Shown here: positions 8,578 through 35,293 of the stretch, piece by piece
Position numbering within the stretch: the stretch's first letter is position 1
How the letters are laid out: each line of letters starts with the position of its first letter
Source: Candidatus Hydrogenedentota bacterium
Lineage (GTDB): Bacteria; Hydrogenedentota; Hydrogenedentia; Hydrogenedentales; CAILVY01
Direction: 5' to 3'
Length of the DNA: 64,000 bases
Assembly (NCBI GenBank): GCA_903837785.1
Contig: CAILVY010000051.1
Location: 1 to 64,000, forward strand
The notes under the pieces: generated by a model
Told to the model about the DNA's origin: nothing
Database searches by the model: none
What the model saw: the letters and a program-made list of their open reading frames with translations, nothing else
Translations under genes and position numbers: made by a program

Positions 8578-9834
8578 ATGAACGGCTGCGGAAGCGAAAA
8601 CAAAGAACTGCGGGAGATGGTTTCGGCCGTCGTGCGGGCCACGCCCGTCACGGACATGCACACGCATTTGTTTGCGCCGGCCTTCGGCGATCTTCTGCTC
8701 CGGGGCGTCGATGAACTCCTGACGTATCACTATCTCATCGCGGAGTTCTTTCGGGCGTCCGAGATGCCCTACGACGCCTTCTGGAGCCTGAGCAAGCGGC
8801 AGCAGGCGGACGCCATCTGGAACACGCTGTTTCTCGAGAACGCGCCCCTGAGCGAGGCGTGCCGGGGCGTGTTGACTGTGCTGCACCGGCTCGGGCTCGA
8901 TGTGGCCGCGCGTGATCTCGATGCATATCGGGCCTGGCATGCGGCGCAGGACGCCGCCGGATTCGTGGATATCGTGTTCCGTTGCGCCGGCCTGAAGGAC
9001 GTGGTCATGACGAACGATCCCTTCGACGCCACGGAGCGTCCGGTATGGGAAAGCCGATTCGAACGCGACCCGCGATTCCATGCCGCCCTCCGCATCGACC
9101 CGATGCTGAACGACTGGCCCAATGCCTGCGGGAAGCTCCGCGGCTGGGGCTATGCCGTGGACCCGGCCCTGTCGGACAAGGCGCGGGCCGAGGCGCGGCG
9201 TTTTCTCGAAGACTGGATGAAGCGCACGGGTTCCCTCTACATGGCGGTGTCCCTGCCGCCGGATTTCGCGTATCCCGAGGAGTCCGCGCGCGCCACGCTC
9301 ATCACGGAATGCGTGCTGCCCGTGGCGCGCGAACGCAATCTGCCCTTCGCCATGATGATTGGCGTGAAGCGCAACGTGAATCCCGCGCTGCGGCTCGCGG
9401 GCGACGGCGTGGACCAGTGCGACGTGGGCGCGGTCGAGCGCCTGTGCGCCGGCTTCCCGAAGAACAAGTTCATGATCACCACGCTGTCGCGCGAGAACCA
9501 GCACACGCTCGCGGTGACCGCGCGCAAATTCCGCAACCTCCTTGTGTTCGGCTGCTGGTGGTTTCTCAATAATCCGAGCCTCATCGAGGAGATGACGCGG
9601 ATGCGCCTGGAACTGCTTGGCCCGTCCATCGTGCCGCAGCATTCCGACGCGCGCGTGCTCGATCAGGTGATCTACAAATGGGATCACTCGCGGACGGTGA
9701 TCGCGCGCGTGCTCGGCGACAAGTACGCTGATCTTGCGGCGACCGGCTGGATGTGTTCTGAAGCGGAGGTCCGCCGCGATGCCGAACGGCTCCTCGGCGG
9801 CAACTTCTGGCGTTTCCTGGAGCGGACGCTGTAA
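8578..9834 (+). CDS. Amidohydrolase-fold protein, glucuronate (uronate) isomerase-like
   Basis: About 418 residues from the ATG at 8578, which has AGAGGA 10-11 bases upstream; an in-frame ATG at 8545 is an alternative. The early metal-binding motif TDMHTHLF and the following DELLTYHYLIAEFFR resemble uronate isomerases (UxaC family), which isomerise glucuronate to fructuronate, although the protein is shorter than the roughly 470 residues of E. coli UxaC. The C-terminal FGCWWFLNNPSLIEEMTRMRLELLG also fits that family. No other uronate-pathway gene is nearby, so the substrate is uncertain. Confidence 0.65.
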   Translation: MNGCGSENKELREMVSAVVRATPVTDMHTHLFAPAFGDLLLRGVDELLTYHYLIAEFFRASEMPYDAFWSLSKRQQADAIWNTLFLENAPLSEACRGVLTVLHRLGLDVAARDLDAYRAWHAAQDAAGFVDIVFRCAGLKDVVMTNDPFDATERPVWESRFERDPRFHAALRIDPMLNDWPNACGKLRGWGYAVDPALSDKARAEARRFLEDWMKRTGSLYMAVSLPPDFAYPEESARATLITECVLPVARERNLPFAMMIGVKRNVNPALRLAGDGVDQCDVGAVERLCAGFPKNKFMITTLSRENQHTLAVTARKFRNLLVFGCWWFLNNPSLIEEMTRMRLELLGPSIVPQHSDARVLDQVIYKWDHSRTVIARVLGDKYADLAATGWMCSEAEVRRDAERLLGGNFWRFLERTL

Positions 9835-28173: not shown

Positions 28174-29664
28174 ATGTTTATCGGCAGTCAATCCACCAGC
28201 ACTATCCTGGACGTGTTCCGAATCGGCCTTCATGAAGTCGTCCGTCAGTGCGGCACCCCTTCCGAAGTTCGTTTCCGGACCGATCATGCCACGATTCACG
28301 CCAAAGCCCCCGATCTCACCCGGCGCGTGGACTTGATGCAGATCACGTTCGATGCGAAACCGGAGGCCACGCCGGACGCGCTGACCAATGCGCTCAAGGC
28401 GACCCAGATTGGGGGGCGTGTCCGGCTCGAAGATGGACGATGCGTGCTCACCGTGCCGCCGTTCGAATGGCGGCAGCTTGCCCAGTTGCTCCCGCTCGAT
28501 CGTCTCGTGGAAACCTATGTGGCCCAGACATTGCGGTCGCAGACCTGGTCCCTCGAAGTCCTCCAGTACATGAGTTCGAGCTTCAACATCAACAAGCTGA
28601 TTGAGTTGATGAAGCAAAGGAAGGCCTCGGACCTGCATCTGCGCGCGGGCAACCGGCCGTTCATCCGGGTGGACAATGATCTTGTTCCTTTGGACATGCC
28701 GCTGATCAGTTCCGAGGACATGCGCGAAATCATGTTGCAGCTCGGCGGCGAAGATGAATTGAACATGCTCGAAACCGAACGGGAATCGAGTTTCCAGTAC
28801 CACGCGGCGGGCACCGGCTATCTGCGTTGCAGCGGCTACATCAAGGGCGGCGCCACGGCGCTCGCCATCCGCCTCATTCCGGAACAGCCGCTGCCCTTCG
28901 AGAAACTGAACATCCCCGAGGTCGTCCGGAACATCTGCTACAAGCACCGCGGCCTCTTCCTCGTGTGCGGCGTGACCGGCTCCGGAAAATCCACCACGCT
29001 TGCGGCCATGATTGATTACATCAATCAGATCCGCAAAGTGCATATCATCACGATCGAGGACCCGGTCGAATACGTATACACGGACAAGCTCAGCATTATC
29101 TCGCAACGGCAGGTGGGCCGGGACACGCTCTCTTTCGGGAACGCGCTGCGCGGCAGCTTGCGTGAAGACCCTGATGTGATTCTCGTGGGTGAAATGCGCG
29201 ACATGGACACGATCCGCGCCGGCCTCAGCGCCGCGGAAACCGGCCATCTCGTGTTCAGCACGCTGCATACCACCACGGCGGTGGACACGATCAACCGCAT
29301 GGTCAGCTACTTTCCGCAGGCCGAACGCGATCTCATCCGGCAGGAAATCGCCTTCACGCTCCAGGGCGTGGTTTGTCAGCGCCTGCTCAAGCGCATCGGC
29401 GGCGGCCGCATTCCCTGCGTCGAGATCTTCCTGGGCGGGCGGCCGATTGTGCGCGACGCCATTCTCGAAGGCGACCTGGACAAGCTCCACGGAATCATCG
29501 AAGTCGACGGCGACATGCGCAGCTTCGACCAGTACTCCGTGGAACTCTTCCAGAAGGGACTCGTGACAAAGGAGGAGGCGATTTCCGCCTGCGCCAACGA
29601 AGAAGGCTTCGAGCGCATCATCTCGGGCATCAAGTCCTCGGAAGGCCGGAAGATCCTCAAGTAA
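28174..29664 (+). CDS. PilT-like ATPase with an extra N-terminal domain
   Basis: A 496-residue protein starting at ATG with GAAGG eight bases upstream. Residues 136-496 are a twitching-motility PilT/PilU-type ATPase: KASDLHLRAGNRP, Walker A GVTGSGKS (266-273), ITIEDPVEY, Walker B VILVGEMRD, TGHLVFSTLHT and a C-terminal VRDAILEG segment like the PilT AIRNLIRE motif. The first 135 residues form a separate beta-rich domain I do not recognise; ordinary PilT is about 345 residues and lacks it. Retraction ATPase activity is likely. Confidence 0.88.
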   Translation: MFIGSQSTSTILDVFRIGLHEVVRQCGTPSEVRFRTDHATIHAKAPDLTRRVDLMQITFDAKPEATPDALTNALKATQIGGRVRLEDGRCVLTVPPFEWRQLAQLLPLDRLVETYVAQTLRSQTWSLEVLQYMSSSFNINKLIELMKQRKASDLHLRAGNRPFIRVDNDLVPLDMPLISSEDMREIMLQLGGEDELNMLETERESSFQYHAAGTGYLRCSGYIKGGATALAIRLIPEQPLPFEKLNIPEVVRNICYKHRGLFLVCGVTGSGKSTTLAAMIDYINQIRKVHIITIEDPVEYVYTDKLSIISQRQVGRDTLSFGNALRGSLREDPDVILVGEMRDMDTIRAGLSAAETGHLVFSTLHTTTAVDTINRMVSYFPQAERDLIRQEIAFTLQGVVCQRLLKRIGGGRIPCVEIFLGGRPIVRDAILEGDLDKLHGIIEVDGDMRSFDQYSVELFQKGLVTKEEAISACANEEGFERIISGIKSSEGRKILK

Positions 29665-29685
29665 CCCTGCGACGCCGCGCGCCGT

Positions 29686-30630
29686 TCAGCGTCCGGGCTG
29701 CGACGCCGCGCGAAGCAGTCCCCGTTGCTGCATCCAGTGCAACGATTCGCGCAGCGCGTCCTGCAAGCTGACCCGCGGGCAATACCCCAACTCCCGCCGG
29801 GCCTTCCCGCTGTCAATGCACATGTGCTCGCAGAGGAAACGCAGGCCCGCCTCGTTCGCCTTTCCCGTGGCCAGGATCTTCTCCATGGGCACATGCTCGA
29901 AGGCCGACTGCGAACCGAGCACTCCGGCGGCCAGCCGTGCATATTCCGTCAGCGTGACGGCGCGCTCCGAAGACAGGTTGTAGATTTGTCCCGCGGCCCG
30001 GGGGGATTCGAGGGCCGCCAGGAAACCGCGCGCGAGGTCATCCACGTGCACCGGCTGCACGAGTGCGCGCCCGTCGTTTGGAATCCAGACGGGCCGGTGA
30101 TCCGCCAGCCGCTGGAAGCAGGCGGGTTCGCGCGCGCCCCAGAGGTCGAGCGGCACATCGCCCGCGCCGATCACATTGCTCACCCGCAGACTGCACGTGC
30201 GAAACCCCGTGCGTTCGTGAAATGCGACCACGGCCAGATCCTGCGCCAGTTTCGCATCGAAGCCGCCCAATTCCGGCGGGCACGGCGTGGGGTCGGTTTC
30301 GCGCGACGGCAGTTGCGCCGCCGGGGCATACACGCCCGTCGAAGCGCAGTGCACGAGCTGGCCCGCGTGCCGGTGAAACAACGGAAGCTGCCAGGCCAAG
30401 TCCTGCGCCTGAAGGATCGTGTCCACGACCGCGTCAAAGCGGCCCTCGCGGAGGGTGGCCTCGACGCATGCCGCATTCCGCGCATCCCCCAGGACGTGTA
30501 CCGCCGCGGCCGGCAGGTCGCCGGGCGTGCTTCCCCGATGCAGCAACGTCACGCGATGTCCCTGCCGCAGCAACTCCCGGGCAATCGCCGCACCCAGGAA
30601 GCGTGTTCCCCCGATGATCAGCACCCGCAC
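29686..30630 (-). CDS. NAD-dependent epimerase/dehydratase (extended SDR)
   Basis: About 314 residues from a GTG at 30630 with GGAGAAGGG upstream; an open frame 120 bases longer runs through the terminator of the small gene, so it is rejected. The nucleotide motif is VLIIGGTRFLGAAIA. The usual catalytic YxxxK appears as FDAK, so the tyrosine seems replaced by phenylalanine, as in some SDR-fold reductase or ribonucleoprotein-like members. VHVDDLARGFLAAL and the C-terminal LGYCPRVSLQDALRESL fit nucleotide-sugar epimerases. Confidence 0.8.
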   Translation of the reverse strand: MRVLIIGGTRFLGAAIARELLRQGHRVTLLHRGSTPGDLPAAAVHVLGDARNAACVEATLREGRFDAVVDTILQAQDLAWQLPLFHRHAGQLVHCASTGVYAPAAQLPSRETDPTPCPPELGGFDAKLAQDLAVVAFHERTGFRTCSLRVSNVIGAGDVPLDLWGAREPACFQRLADHRPVWIPNDGRALVQPVHVDDLARGFLAALESPRAAGQIYNLSSERAVTLTEYARLAAGVLGSQSAFEHVPMEKILATGKANEAGLRFLCEHMCIDSGKARRELGYCPRVSLQDALRESLHWMQQRGLLRAASQPGR

Positions 30631-30691
30631 GTCCGCTATTCCCTTCTCCGGCGCCTTCCGCACCGGCTGTGTCACGACGCATTGGAGCGAA

Positions 30692-30746
30692 GAAAAATCG
30701 CAACGCCGCCCGACGGCTCCCCTGGGGGAGGCTGCGAGCGGCGTTG
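30692..30746 (-). terminator. Intrinsic terminator of the 35-residue protein gene
   Basis: On the minus strand CAACGCCGC (30746-30738) pairs with GCGGCGTTG (30709-30701), with an inner CTCCCC/GGGGAG hairpin, followed by a T-run (complement of AAAAA at 30693-30697). The hairpin begins 29 bases after the small gene's stop codon. Confidence 0.72.
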
Positions 30747-30774
30747 TCACACACTGCCGTCTCGAGAGGCCGGT

Positions 30775-30882
30775 CTAGAAGGGGTTATAGCCCCACAGCC
30801 ACCCGAAGAAGAGGTAATAGACGGCGTAATACAGGAGGTTGTCCACCAGCGCCCACAGTTCATCCCACAGTGTCATGGTCAT
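30775..30882 (-). CDS. 35-residue aromatic-rich small protein, new
   Basis: ATG at 30882 to TAG at 30775, with a near-perfect AAGAAGGAG five bases upstream. The peptide opens MTMTLWDELWALVDNLL and ends in WLWGYNPF; 12 of its 35 residues are W, Y or F. The acidic, amphipathic first half leads to a hydrophobic second half, suggesting a membrane-associated peptide. It has its own promoter, a hairpin at the predicted RNA 5' end and an intrinsic terminator, which supports true expression. I do not recognise a family and assign no function. It lies between HU and an SDR gene. Confidence 0.72.
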   Translation of the reverse strand: MTMTLWDELWALVDNLLYYAVYYLFFGWLWGYNPF

Positions 30883-30914
30883 GTGCTCCTTCTTGTAACC
30901 CCAACCACAGGTTT

Positions 30915-30934
30915 GGAAACGCCCTTGCGTTTCC
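30915..30934 (-). ncRNA. Hairpin at the 5' end of the small-protein mRNA
   Basis: Perfect 8-base arms (GGAAACGC and GCGTTTCC) around a 4-base loop. The predicted transcription start near 30935 places this stem-loop at the very 5' end of the RNA, where such hairpins commonly protect against decay. It may also be a regulatory fold. Confidence 0.5.
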
Positions 30935-30941
30935 CGCCGTG

Positions 30942-30970
30942 ATTTTAGCCAACGCTCCGGCCCGGGTCAA
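30942..30970 (-). promoter_or_regulatory. Promoter of the 35-residue protein gene
   Basis: On the minus strand TTGACC (30970-30965), an exact 17-base spacer, then TAAAAT (30947-30942). Predicted start near 30935. One of the best promoter matches in the window. Confidence 0.7.
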
Positions 30971-31012
30971 TCCGGCCAAGACGCCCGCAGCCGTGCAAAC
31001 CGGCATGAATAG

Positions 31013-31049
31013 CATGGCCCGGGACAGCATCACGCCGCGCCGGGCCATG
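31013..31049 (-). terminator. Stem-loop downstream of HU
   Basis: Perfect 10-base arms (CATGGCCCGG and its complement) with a 17-base loop, 22 bases after the HU stop. There is no strong T-tract, so it may be a Rho-assisted or processing-type 3' end. It separates HU from the small-protein unit. Confidence 0.45.
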
Positions 31050-31070
31050 GGAAATGCGATGGGATGATAG

Positions 31071-31388
31071 TTACTTCTTGACGGGGCCGACGATCGCGTC
31101 CTTCGCCTGCTTGGCGACGCGGAACTTGAGCACCTTCTTCGCCGGAATGACAATCTGCGCGCCGGTGGCCGGATTGCGGCCCATGCGCTTCTTGCGGTTG
31201 ATGACGACCAGCTTGCCCAGGCCCGGAAGCGTGAAGCCGGCGGCGGCTTGCGCATAGGAGAGCTCAACCAGCGTGGCGAGCACTTTGCCCACGTCTTTCT
31301 TCGTCAGTCCGGTTTCCGCGGCGAGCACTTCCAGAATCTTCCCTTTGGTCAGGGCCTTGTCCCCCGCTTTGGCTTTCTTGATGGCCAT
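31071..31388 (-). CDS. HU/IHF-family DNA-binding protein
   Basis: A 105-residue histone-like protein with GGAGGA upstream. The family pattern is clear: LTKGKILEVLAAETGLTKKDVGKVL, the beta-arm region GFTLPGLGKLVVINRKKRMGRNPATGAQIVIPA and VLKFRVAKQAKDA. It bends and compacts DNA. It is about 15 residues longer than the 90-residue E. coli HU, through a Lys-containing N-terminal extension. It has its own promoter and probably its own 3' hairpin. Confidence 0.95.
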   Translation of the reverse strand: MAIKKAKAGDKALTKGKILEVLAAETGLTKKDVGKVLATLVELSYAQAAAGFTLPGLGKLVVINRKKRMGRNPATGAQIVIPAKKVLKFRVAKQAKDAIVGPVKK

Positions 31389-31842
31389 GGTCTACTTCCT
31401 CCGTTGTTGTTCGATTTCCCCATCCAGAGCGCCTCCGCCCCAAGCGACACATTGCGACAGGCAACGCGTCGAACCGCGCGGAACCGCCCACATTCTCGCG
31501 GCCGTCGCCATTGCTCCGGCCATAGCGACGCATTGCATAACGAGTAACGGCGCTTTTGTCAAGCCCAATTTTCAAGGGGAAAATCATTCACCGCTTCGAA
31601 AGCCCCTGTTTTTACAGGTCGATCCGTGCCGAAGCCGGCACGCCTCCCGGCGCAGATCGTCATAACGTATTGAGGGATCATCAGTTATGAAGCGCAGAAA
31701 CATCCCGGTTTTCGTGATGATCGACCCCTGCGCAACTACAGCACGTCCAGTGTGCTGTGAGTGCAATGCGAGGCCCGCGCCCTTTTCAGCGCATCGCCGT
31801 TATGATCGTCCGCGCAACTTTTTGGTGCGGCCAGGCCGAAGA
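31389..31842. other. Intergenic region upstream of HU
   Basis: 454 bases without a supported gene. The HU promoter lies at 31534-31562, with A/T-rich sequence above it that could act as an UP element. A weak 7-base inverted repeat (ACAGCAC/GTGCTGT, 31738-31758) lies near the end of the HAD gene. Confidence 0.5.
31534..31562 (-). promoter_or_regulatory. Candidate HU promoter
   Basis: On the minus strand a perfect TTGACA (31562-31557), a 17-base spacer and TATGCA (31539-31534). The leader would be about 140 bases. Confidence 0.5.
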
Positions 31843-32553
31843 TCAGCGCAAGTTGGGAAGGAACTTGATGAATTCACGCCAGTGCGTGAAGGTGTATTCG
31901 GCGGTCGTGTTCCCGACGAACCTGGCGTTCACGCCGGCAAACAGCGCGGCCTTGCCGCCGAGCCGTTGTGCGCCGAGGATGTCCGTGGGTTGGAGATCGC
32001 CGATGTGGAGCAGCTCATTGGGGGCGACATTGAGTATGCGCGCCGTGCGTTCGAACATGGGGGCCTGCGGCTTGGCCACGCCCACCTCGTCCGAGAAAGT
32101 GAATGCGGTGAAATAGCCGGAGAAGCCCTCGATGCTCATGAGCTGGCGCAAGGACGATCCCGGGCTGACGCCGGTGTCCGAGATGAGGCCGATCGGCAGG
32201 TGGCGCGCCGCCACGCGCACCGCTTCAAGCGCATCGTCAATGGGCACCGGCGGATACTTCAGGATGGCCGTGGCAAACGCGTCCGCGACCCGCTTTGCGG
32301 CGCGCGGATTGATGGACACCCCGATGTTCTCGCACGTGAGGCGCACCGCATCCTTCGGCGTGAGCGTGCGTTGATCCTCGATGTGGCTGCGCTGGAATTC
32401 CTGGAAGGTGGCCTGCATGGCGGCGGTGACCACGTCGGCATCCACGCCGGTGGTCTTGACGAAGGCATCGAGCCGGATTCGCTGGCGTTCCTCGGAACCG
32501 GCGTCGCGAAAGAGGGTCCCCCAAAAATCAAAAGTGATTGCACGTACTGCCAT
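31843..32553 (-). CDS. HAD-superfamily hydrolase
   Basis: A 236-residue protein with HAD motif I ITFDFWGTL (nucleophile Asp9), motif II GLISDTG, motif III lysine in VGVAKPQAPMF and motif IV LHIGDLQPTDILGA. A helical cap lies between motifs I and II (subfamily C1). It probably dephosphorylates a small metabolite in the cytoplasm. It diverges from the glycyl radical enzyme gene. Confidence 0.87.
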   Translation of the reverse strand: MAVRAITFDFWGTLFRDAGSEERQRIRLDAFVKTTGVDADVVTAAMQATFQEFQRSHIEDQRTLTPKDAVRLTCENIGVSINPRAAKRVADAFATAILKYPPVPIDDALEAVRVAARHLPIGLISDTGVSPGSSLRQLMSIEGFSGYFTAFTFSDEVGVAKPQAPMFERTARILNVAPNELLHIGDLQPTDILGAQRLGGKAALFAGVNARFVGNTTAEYTFTHWREFIKFLPNLR

Positions 32554-32896
32554 GTCTTCGCACTGCGCTCCGTTTTCTTGTTCGCCGTTTGCCGGACCCC
32601 CTGTGCGGCAACGCCGGCGCGATGCCGCTGATCCCCGCGGCCACGACTACATACAACACCGCGTCCGGCAGGAAATGTTTCCACCCCTTTCCCAGCCTTT
32701 TACCCCAAACGCATGCGCATACGCAAACACGCGGCCGGCGGGCGCCAAGGCCGGCATCCGGAGAAGCGCCTGCACCCCCCGGGGGGACTTCAGGGCAGGG
32801 CATGGGCCGGGAAGGCGGCCGCCGTGCGCGATCGCGCGCGCTTTGCGCCCATCTGGTATGATTAAGGCAGGGACGCACCCTTGGGAGCGCAACATC
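32554..32896. other. Divergent intergenic region
   Basis: 343 bases between the HAD and glycyl radical enzyme genes. I see no gene. An extended -10 TGGTATGAT (32854-32862) precedes the glycyl radical enzyme, and a short GGAAATGTTTCC palindrome lies at 32671-32682. Confidence 0.45.
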
Positions 32897-35293
32897 ATGC
32901 CGGCCGCCTCACAACCCGCTGCATCTGCCGCGCTGTGGCATGCTTCGGACGCGCTGCCGGAACGGGTGAAACGGCTCCGTGACGAGTATTTCTCTTTCGA
33001 TACGCGCCGCTTCCGCAACGAAGTCCTCCCCTTCAGCACCGGCACGCCATGGGATGCCGTGTACTCGTTCGGACGCTGGACGAACGTTCCCGAGGTCATG
33101 CCCTTCCTCCGCGCGTTTGAAGACTCGCTGGCCGCGGCGGCCCGCGTGGTGCCCATGCCCCGGGATTTCTGGGAAGAACCCCTGATGATGCGAGTCGCCC
33201 TGTTCTTCTCCGAGATTCTCCGAAAACATCTGCCGATAGACATCCTCGAAGGCGAATTGATCGTGGGCGGACAGTTCAACGTGGCGCTTTCGCTGTGCCT
33301 TGGGCAACGCGATGCAAAACGCCGCGCCAGGACGGCCGATGCGTTTCGCCGCGCCGTGGGGGAGGTTTCGAATCTCGGCATCGGAAACTGCGGCGCGGTG
33401 CCCGGCCATCTCATTCCGGACTATCCGAAAGTGCTGCGCGTGGGGTTTCAGGGAATCGCCGAAGAAATCCGGACGGCCCTGACGCGCAAAGCCCGCGGGG
33501 AAACGCGCGCCGCGCTCGAAGCCTTCCTGACGTGTTGCGAGGCTGCCCGCGCCTTTGCCGCGCGTTACGCCGAAGCAGCGGAACAACAGGCCGTGGAGGC
33601 CGCGCCCGGCCGCGCCGAAGAACTCCGCGAGATCGCGCGCATCTGCCGCAAAGTCCCCTGGGCGCCGGCGGAGAGCTTTCACGAGGCGCTGCAGTCCCTG
33701 TGGTTCACGCACATGCTCGTCATGGTTTCTGAATCGTATCCCGGCGCGGGCGTCTCGTTCGGCCGCTTCGATCAATATCTCTGGCCATATCTCGAACGCG
33801 ACCTCGCGGAGCAGCGAATCAACCCCGCGTTCGCGCGCGACCTGCTCCGTTGCTTCTGGATCAAGCCGAACTACGCCTACGACTATCAGGGGCGCGTCGG
33901 ACGGAATCAGGGCATCAATTCGTCGTTCGGCCAGTTGATTACGCTGTCGGGCTGCGGCCCCGGCGGCGAAGACCTGAGCAATGAACTGACGTATCTCTGC
34001 CTCGACGTGATCGAGGAGATGAACCTGCTCGAGCCCAAGCCCAACGTGCGGCTGCACGCGCAATCGCCCGAACGCCTCTTGACGCGCATCTGCCAGTTGC
34101 TGGGCAAGGCGCAGGGCGCGCCCTTTCTCATCAACTTCGACGAGAGTTCGATGCGCGGCCTGCGCTGGCAGGGTTTGCCCGAGAACGACCTCTGGGATTA
34201 CGCGCCCGTCGGATGCCTCGAAAACACGCGGCAGGGCGATGACCGCTCCGGCACGGTTGATGTCAACCTCAATCTCGCCAAGCCGGTCGAACTGACGTTG
34301 TTCCAGGGCCGCGATCTCGCCTCCGGGGTGCAGGCGGGACCACGCACGCCCGACCCGCGTGCGATGACGTCATGGGATGCCTTTGAACGGGCGTTCCGCG
34401 TCCAGCTTTCGGCGTGCCTGCATCGATTGATCGACTTGAACAACACGGCCGACGCCATCCGCGCGCGCTATGAGCCGACGCCGTATCTCTCCTGTCTCGT
34501 CGGCGGGTGCATCGAGCACGGCAGGGACATCACGCAGGGCGGCGCGCGCCACAATTTCGTCACGGTCGAGGGCATCGCCCTTGCCACCGCCGCGGACTCG
34601 CTGCTGGCCGTGAAGCACCTCGTCTTCGGCGAGCGGCGCGTGGCGATGGACACGCTGATCACCGCGATCACGCGGAACTTCGCCGAGGATGAACTGCTGC
34701 GCCAAACCCTCATGAACAAGGCGCCGAAGTACGGCAACGACGATGCGGAGGCGGACCGCATGGCCCGCGATCTCACGCACTGGTGGGCGGAGGAGGCCTT
34801 CCGATGCGAGACGCCGGCGACCGGCAAGCGCTATCGCGCGGGCTATCTCTCCTGGAATTACGGCGTGGCCTATGCGCCGCTGGTTTCCGCGACTCCGGAC
34901 GGCCGCAAGCGCGGCACGTTCCTCTCCAACGGCGTGGCGGCCGTGACGGGCATGGACCGCGAAGGGCCGACCGCCGCGGCGCGCTCCGTGGGCAATCTGG
35001 AACTCGACGTGGTGCCCAACGGCGCCTCGCACACCCTTTCGCTGTCGCCGTCCTTTGTCCGTGATGAGGAGCACCGGCGCAAGCTGGCCGGATTCCTGCG
35101 CGGTTACGGGCAGCATGGGGGGACCGCCCTGCAAGTCAACCTCATCGATGCGGAAACCCTGCGCCAGGCCCAGCAGCACCCCGATGCATTCCGCAACCTG
35201 CTGGTGCGCGTGACGGGCTATAATGCATACTTTGTGAACCTGGGCCGCGAGATCCAGGATGAGATTATCGCGCGCGAAGCGCACCGCTGTTGA
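32897..35293 (+). CDS. Glycyl radical enzyme (PFL-like eliminase group)
   Basis: A 798-residue protein starting at ATG with GGGAG upstream. The thiyl cysteine lies in VGCLEN (Cys440) with the catalytic-type Glu442, as in dehydratase/eliminase members rather than pyruvate formate-lyase, which has two adjacent cysteines. The glycyl radical site is RVTGYNAYFVNLG (Gly774). The family segment LVGGCIEHGRDITQGGARHN is also present. It is oxygen-sensitive and needs a radical SAM activase, but none lies next to it. Neighbours give no substrate; choline, glycerol, diol or sulfonate-type lyases are all possible. Confidence 0.9.
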   Translation: MPAASQPAASAALWHASDALPERVKRLRDEYFSFDTRRFRNEVLPFSTGTPWDAVYSFGRWTNVPEVMPFLRAFEDSLAAAARVVPMPRDFWEEPLMMRVALFFSEILRKHLPIDILEGELIVGGQFNVALSLCLGQRDAKRRARTADAFRRAVGEVSNLGIGNCGAVPGHLIPDYPKVLRVGFQGIAEEIRTALTRKARGETRAALEAFLTCCEAARAFAARYAEAAEQQAVEAAPGRAEELREIARICRKVPWAPAESFHEALQSLWFTHMLVMVSESYPGAGVSFGRFDQYLWPYLERDLAEQRINPAFARDLLRCFWIKPNYAYDYQGRVGRNQGINSSFGQLITLSGCGPGGEDLSNELTYLCLDVIEEMNLLEPKPNVRLHAQSPERLLTRICQLLGKAQGAPFLINFDESSMRGLRWQGLPENDLWDYAPVGCLENTRQGDDRSGTVDVNLNLAKPVELTLFQGRDLASGVQAGPRTPDPRAMTSWDAFERAFRVQLSACLHRLIDLNNTADAIRARYEPTPYLSCLVGGCIEHGRDITQGGARHNFVTVEGIALATAADSLLAVKHLVFGERRVAMDTLITAITRNFAEDELLRQTLMNKAPKYGNDDAEADRMARDLTHWWAEEAFRCETPATGKRYRAGYLSWNYGVAYAPLVSATPDGRKRGTFLSNGVAAVTGMDREGPTAAARSVGNLELDVVPNGASHTLSLSPSFVRDEEHRRKLAGFLRGYGQHGGTALQVNLIDAETLRQAQQHPDAFRNLLVRVTGYNAYFVNLGREIQDEIIAREAHRC

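Follow-up and report, generated by a model that had tools for sequence, protein, structure and literature searches.

A conserved gene for a predicted 33-residue aromatic membrane protein in a genus of Hydrogenedentota

Very short genes are easily confused with chance arrangements of signals, and the locus described here raises this question in a clear form. In a window of 64,000 nucleotides from a Candidatus Hydrogenedentota bacterium (contig CAILVY010000051.1, part of a 7.3-Mb assembly), the original prediction placed a complete miniature transcription unit for a 35-residue aromatic protein. Is this unit a genuine gene, and if so, what kind of protein would it produce? The claimed promoter, 8-base hairpin, ribosome site, 35-codon ORF and terminator are all present on the minus strand (Table 1). 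Their spacing had been described as correct throughout, and this holds for the promoter and the hairpin, but from GGAG to the first ATG there are only 3 nt, and another 3 nt separate the terminator stem from the T-run.

Table 1. Positions of the parts of the unit in the window
Feature	Position	Strand	Details	Basis
Sigma-70-like promoter	30942..30970	(-)	TTGACC (30970-30965), 17-nt spacer, TAAAAT (30947-30942)	10/12 consensus matches
Perfect 8-bp hairpin at predicted RNA 5′ end	30915..30934	(-)	GGAAACGC-AAGG-GCGTTTCC	sequence, shuffles
Shine-Dalgarno	30886..30894	(-)	AAGAAGGAG	sequence
Small ORF, 35 codons from first ATG	30775..30882	(-)	ATG 30882 to TAG 30775	
Intrinsic terminator	30692..30746	(-)	GC-rich stem 30746-30701, T-run TTTTT 30697-30693	folding, sequence

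The promoter is the top-scoring sigma-70-like site within 29500-32500. The 5′ hairpin begins 1-2 nt past the predicted +1, in a leader of 53 nt up to the first ATG, and the predicted mRNA of about 245 bases ends in a terminator hairpin of -34.7 kcal/mol, which a strict scan missed because of the distance between stem and T-run. Mechanical search for a promoter, a ribosome site, an ORF of 20-80 codons and a hairpin with T-run in combination found the unit at 30692-30970 as the sole match in the window. However, dinucleotide-shuffled windows contained 0.65 such composite units on average, so that the architecture alone is not significant and gives no evidence by itself. An 8-bp hairpin at the RNA start arises less often by chance than this composite layout (2 of 3000 leader shuffles). 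What is decisive for the unit being genuine is the conservation of its ORF.

Conservation was found by a protein search of 60 relatives, among which one congeneric genome (G001, JAKQOG010000152.1, contig C189) carries a second copy, MYAWDSVYHVLYNVWYYIVYYLLFGWAWGYSPF-stop, of 33 residues. The proteins are 53% identical over 34 aligned residues (E = 1.1e-6), with 18 of 33 residues identical. Loss of the reading frame in relatives had been named in advance as an observation that would count against the gene; in the one congeneric genome examined, the frame is free of stops. PF-stop forms the exact C-terminal end in both proteins, and the aromatic C-terminal half is strongly conserved while the N-terminal half is variable. 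Differences fall on codon positions 1, 2 and 3 in 12, 9 and 15 of 34 cases, and synonymous changes are found in seven conserved codons, the stop included. When alignment columns were shuffled, none of 20,000 trials gave a stop-free alignment that scored as high as the observed one. The true frame reaches 120, compared with 26-63 for the five other frames. These shuffles and frame scores indicate that the ORF is very probably protein-coding and under selection; judged from the two sequences, its coding nature is near certain, and an intact ORF of at most 50 aa is thus conserved between species.

The predicted start, on the other hand, probably adds two codons too many. The alignment with the sister protein begins at the second Met of the window ORF (ATG at 30876), and GGAG stands 9 nt from this second ATG, both of which make 33 codons likelier than 35. 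Translation would then probably start there and give the 33-residue product MTLWDELWALVDNLLYYAVYYLFFGWLWGYNPF.

The sister copy also has the rest of the unit. Its promoter, TTGACA-17-TATAAT, agrees with the consensus at 12/12 positions and occupies the same place relative to the ORF. The leader is 54 nt long and includes a 10-bp hairpin with two G-U pairs about 3 nt after the predicted +1 (1/3000 shuffles), and the terminator consists of a stem of -26.5 kcal/mol followed by TTTCCTTTTTT. Leaders and trailers of the two species have no evident common sequence: the layout is common but the letters differ, and the sister hairpin is unrelated in sequence to that of the window, yet has the same position. 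Recurrence of the layout in unrelated letters bears out the idea of a complete miniature transcription unit, and as far as sequence comparison can tell, the monocistronic unit and its protein gene are real. Elsewhere in the genome of the window (G000:C293:2253-2275), a stretch of 23 nt matches part of the sister copy's terminator stem at 96% identity (E = 0.009).

The 5′ dyad of the window was also considered as an operator common to other genes, and this was rejected, since it has no second occurrence in its genome; a dyad found once argues against the operator of a regulon. In addition, the two G-U pairs of the sister hairpin are more in keeping with a hairpin in RNA than with a dyad in DNA. 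In Escherichia coli, a 5′ hairpin stabilizes bla mRNA and impedes RppH, and Bacillus subtilis mRNAs are stabilized by hairpins close to the 5′ end (PMC3997798). By analogy, the end hairpin of the present unit may be read as an mRNA stabilizer.

The two copies lie in unrelated neighborhoods. The window unit is located between an HU-family DNA-binding gene (31388-31071, PF00216) and an NAD-dependent epimerase-like gene (PF01370), whereas the HU ortholog in the sister genome adjoins SRP RNA and a dnaX-like gene, not the small gene. The sister unit fills a 416-nt gap (L011 9347-9762) between the genes for a 170-aa protein and a 4HBT thioesterase. The same two flanking genes are only 15 nt apart on another contig of the window genome (G000:C78, gap L030:1486-1500), and an upstream epimerase/DegT gene is common to both sites. 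Flanks adjacent in one genome are split by the unit in the other, so that, between these genomes, it was gained or lost there as a block. Comparison of 30 thioesterase-gene loci for the direction of this change found no outgroup with this gene order. The unrelated neighborhoods indicate that the unit is self-contained, and the presence of all its parts again at an unrelated locus suggests a gene maintained as a module with expression of its own. The two loci have no conserved partner gene beside the unit. A mobile, transposon-like miniature element was rejected as an explanation, because the insert in the sister genome is single copy and has near its ends one weak 12-nt imperfect inverted repeat (9359-9370 / 9733-9744, 10/12, on G001:C189).

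Several other features were seen around these loci. The SRP RNA of the sister genome is of the large bacterial type (RF01854, L012:1934-2202) and is placed between the HU gene and the dnaX-like gene; the HU gene of the window has no SRP RNA neighbor. Just past the latter HU gene, a perfect 10-bp inverted repeat, CATGGCCCGG...CCGGGCCATG, occurs at 31013-31049 of the minus strand with no T-run, and this may be part of the 3′ end of the HU gene. Further away, the window encodes a pyruvate formate lyase-like glycyl radical enzyme (32381-35293, plus strand; PF02901, PF01228), with a HAD hydrolase gene near it on the opposite strand.

How widely is this gene distributed? A profile built from the two sequences found true copies in two of 68 genomes of the phylum and none in one other genus of the same family; a 14-residue profile match in the 68 genomes (L007) was regarded as chance. 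The exact C-terminal motif was found in a single record among 85,000 species genomes, namely the sister copy, in a scan from which the window genome's own records were possibly left out and which divergent relatives could escape because the motif was demanded exactly. tblastn against phages and plasmids gave no matches, and viral matches to the motif (L009/L010, L065-L068) were in the wrong frame or in 11-codon frames and are read as chance. Near-matches to YYxxYYLxFGW in the phylum were either in unrelated long ORFs or not above the reversed-pattern control. Thus, the gene is apparently lineage-restricted, so far found in one Hydrogenedentota genus.

The product has an unusual composition. 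Aromatic residues make up 12 of 33 (36%) in the window protein, against the one third originally stated, and 14 of 33 (42%) in the sister protein; neither contains any Lys or Arg, and acidic residues number three and one, respectively. The description as amphipathic and then hydrophobic also holds: the N-terminal half has a moment of about 0.48, and the C-terminal half is hydrophobic throughout. On the Wimley-White octanol scale, the top 19-mers of the two proteins reach -13.3 and -15.3 kcal/mol, and their interface energies are -12 to -13. AlphaFold2 models show one helix in each, at residues 3-29 of the window 35-mer (pLDDT 83.7) and residues 2-27 of the sister protein (pLDDT 83.0), although a model from two sequences adds little to helix propensity and a single helix is what is expected for such a peptide. 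Model and octanol energy together describe a single hydrophobic helix of 15-30 residues. The residues conserved in both proteins include GxxxG, a helix-packing motif, and the C-terminal end YYxVYYLxFGWxWGYxPF-COOH, from which, as it derives from two sequences, inference at the level of single residues is thin. In the window copy, Asp12 is in the middle of the helix, which disfavors deep insertion of the N-terminal half, and this half may be interfacial. Pfam, NCBIfam, PHROGs, PADLOC and PDB chains gave no family match for the protein, and Foldseek no structural match.

The predicted hydrophobic single helix and the membrane-favoring energies support the small membrane protein, one of three readings originally proposed. 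The other two, a toxin-like peptide and a dual-function RNA, are less likely, as is a leader peptide. Basic residues beside the helix are usual in type I toxins, with exceptions. A membrane-damaging peptide of this type, kept under control by an RNA antitoxin, would agree with the small size, the hydrophobic helix and the hairpins at both mRNA ends, and IbsC, ShoB and DinQ likewise lack a basic C-terminus (PMC8309996). However, helix-flanking basic residues are absent here from both proteins, the gene is single copy, and the ribosome site is open, with no strong structure sequestering it. Antisense promoter-like sites reach at most 8/12 at either locus, none being 9/12 or better, compared with 10/12 and 12/12 for the sense promoters, in a consensus scan that by its nature cannot exclude one. 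The toxin-like reading is thus weak, and we regard it as unlikely. An equally low probability is given to a secreted or modified peptide, such as a leaderless bacteriocin, a RiPP precursor or a signal, whose active part would be the aromatic C-terminus. A conserved aromatic C-terminal half up to PF-stop behind a variable N-terminal half is a pattern that leader and core peptides may show, but the variable half is itself helical and hydrophobic, which is atypical of a leader, the protein is acidic rather than cationic, and no modifying, transport or immunity genes are common to the two loci.

Less probable again is an attenuator, in which aromatic codons of a leader peptide would control a terminator before the next gene. 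The order of promoter, aromatic-codon ORF and terminator would suit this, and both species have a same-strand gene that begins about 60-75 nt downstream. The downstream genes are nevertheless unrelated (an NAD epimerase-like gene in the window, a 4HBT thioesterase gene in the sister genome), with no known gene of aromatic amino acids among them; the sister thioesterase gene even has its own 9/12 promoter-like site. Antiterminator pairing is not significant, since 35/300 and 64/300 shuffles were equally good, and what is conserved is the amino-acid sequence itself, beyond its aromatic content. This same conservation weighs against the least probable of these explanations, in which the ORF is incidental to a noncoding or dual-function RNA. 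The compact transcript with a hairpin at each end would be in keeping with it, but what the two species have in common is the protein sequence alone, with no evident common sequence in leader or trailer, folding of the whole transcript is not unusual (z = -0.93), and Rfam has no match for it.

The reading preferred here, with a probability of about 0.6, is a monocistronic gene for a 33-residue membrane protein that packs on a larger membrane protein as an accessory or regulatory subunit. We infer that the gene is expressed and that its product is in the membrane and binds a partner; the membrane location is likely from the helix models and energies, and the accessory role is a reasoned guess by analogy. 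A housekeeping-type promoter would drive strong transcription of a stable mRNA, whose hairpin at the extreme 5′ end would spare the ribosome site and protect the end from decay, while a strong Shine-Dalgarno would allow steady translation and the terminator would insulate the unit. The product would be a long single helix, spanning about residues 2-27 and lying in or across the membrane with Trp/Tyr anchors; its N-terminal end would be acidic or polar, and its C-terminal end would carry the conserved motif. GxxxG and the aromatic residues might then pack on a larger membrane protein or on another copy, which would make the product an accessory or regulatory subunit comparable to other small membrane proteins. 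Of the initial interpretation, the small membrane protein gene is retained; the toxin-like peptide, the dual-function RNA and the 35-codon start are judged less likely. A further-reaching proposal, which is tentative and rather doubtful, is a self-contained “gene island of one”: small membrane proteins that have no basic anchors and share a conserved Trp/Tyr/Gly motif, carried on an insulated cassette whose layout is constant but whose genomic position differs between the sister species, and serving a lineage-specific membrane process.

Three groups of known proteins invite comparison. In Hydrogenedentota, proteins of the DUF6600 type have YGWxWGYDPxW, which resembles FGWxWGYxPF of the small protein. 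In these cases, the protein is several hundred residues long and continues beyond the motif, unlike the small protein; the matches were discarded as homologs, and the likeness is apparently a chance resemblance of sequence. Four large proteins of the phylum (L026, L027, L028 and L029, position 1501) carry the longer form HYGRWxYxPxYGWxWGYDPxWSPAW, and a DUF6600 match was shown for L029. The type I toxins IbsC, TisB, Hok, Fst/Ldr and DinQ are, as here, small hydrophobic single-helix peptides with structured mRNAs (PMC8309996), but the present unit differs in having no notable antisense promoter-like site, no basic residues, an acidic N-terminus and an open ribosome site. The closest likeness is to MgrB, SafA, AcrZ, KdpF, MgtS, Prli42 and YohP, which are similarly very short and strongly membrane-favoring with one predicted helix, although no sequence relationship to them was found. 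Known small membrane proteins exert their action on larger membrane proteins, against which they pack (PMC11539335). The present protein differs from them in its 36-42% aromatic content, its lack of Lys/Arg and the absence of a known stress link. It brings a new sequence motif to this class, of which it is a previously undescribed member and not something categorically new. Although no family library or solved structure matches it, its gene could be recognized as real and conserved from the bare sequence, in a phylum that has been little studied.
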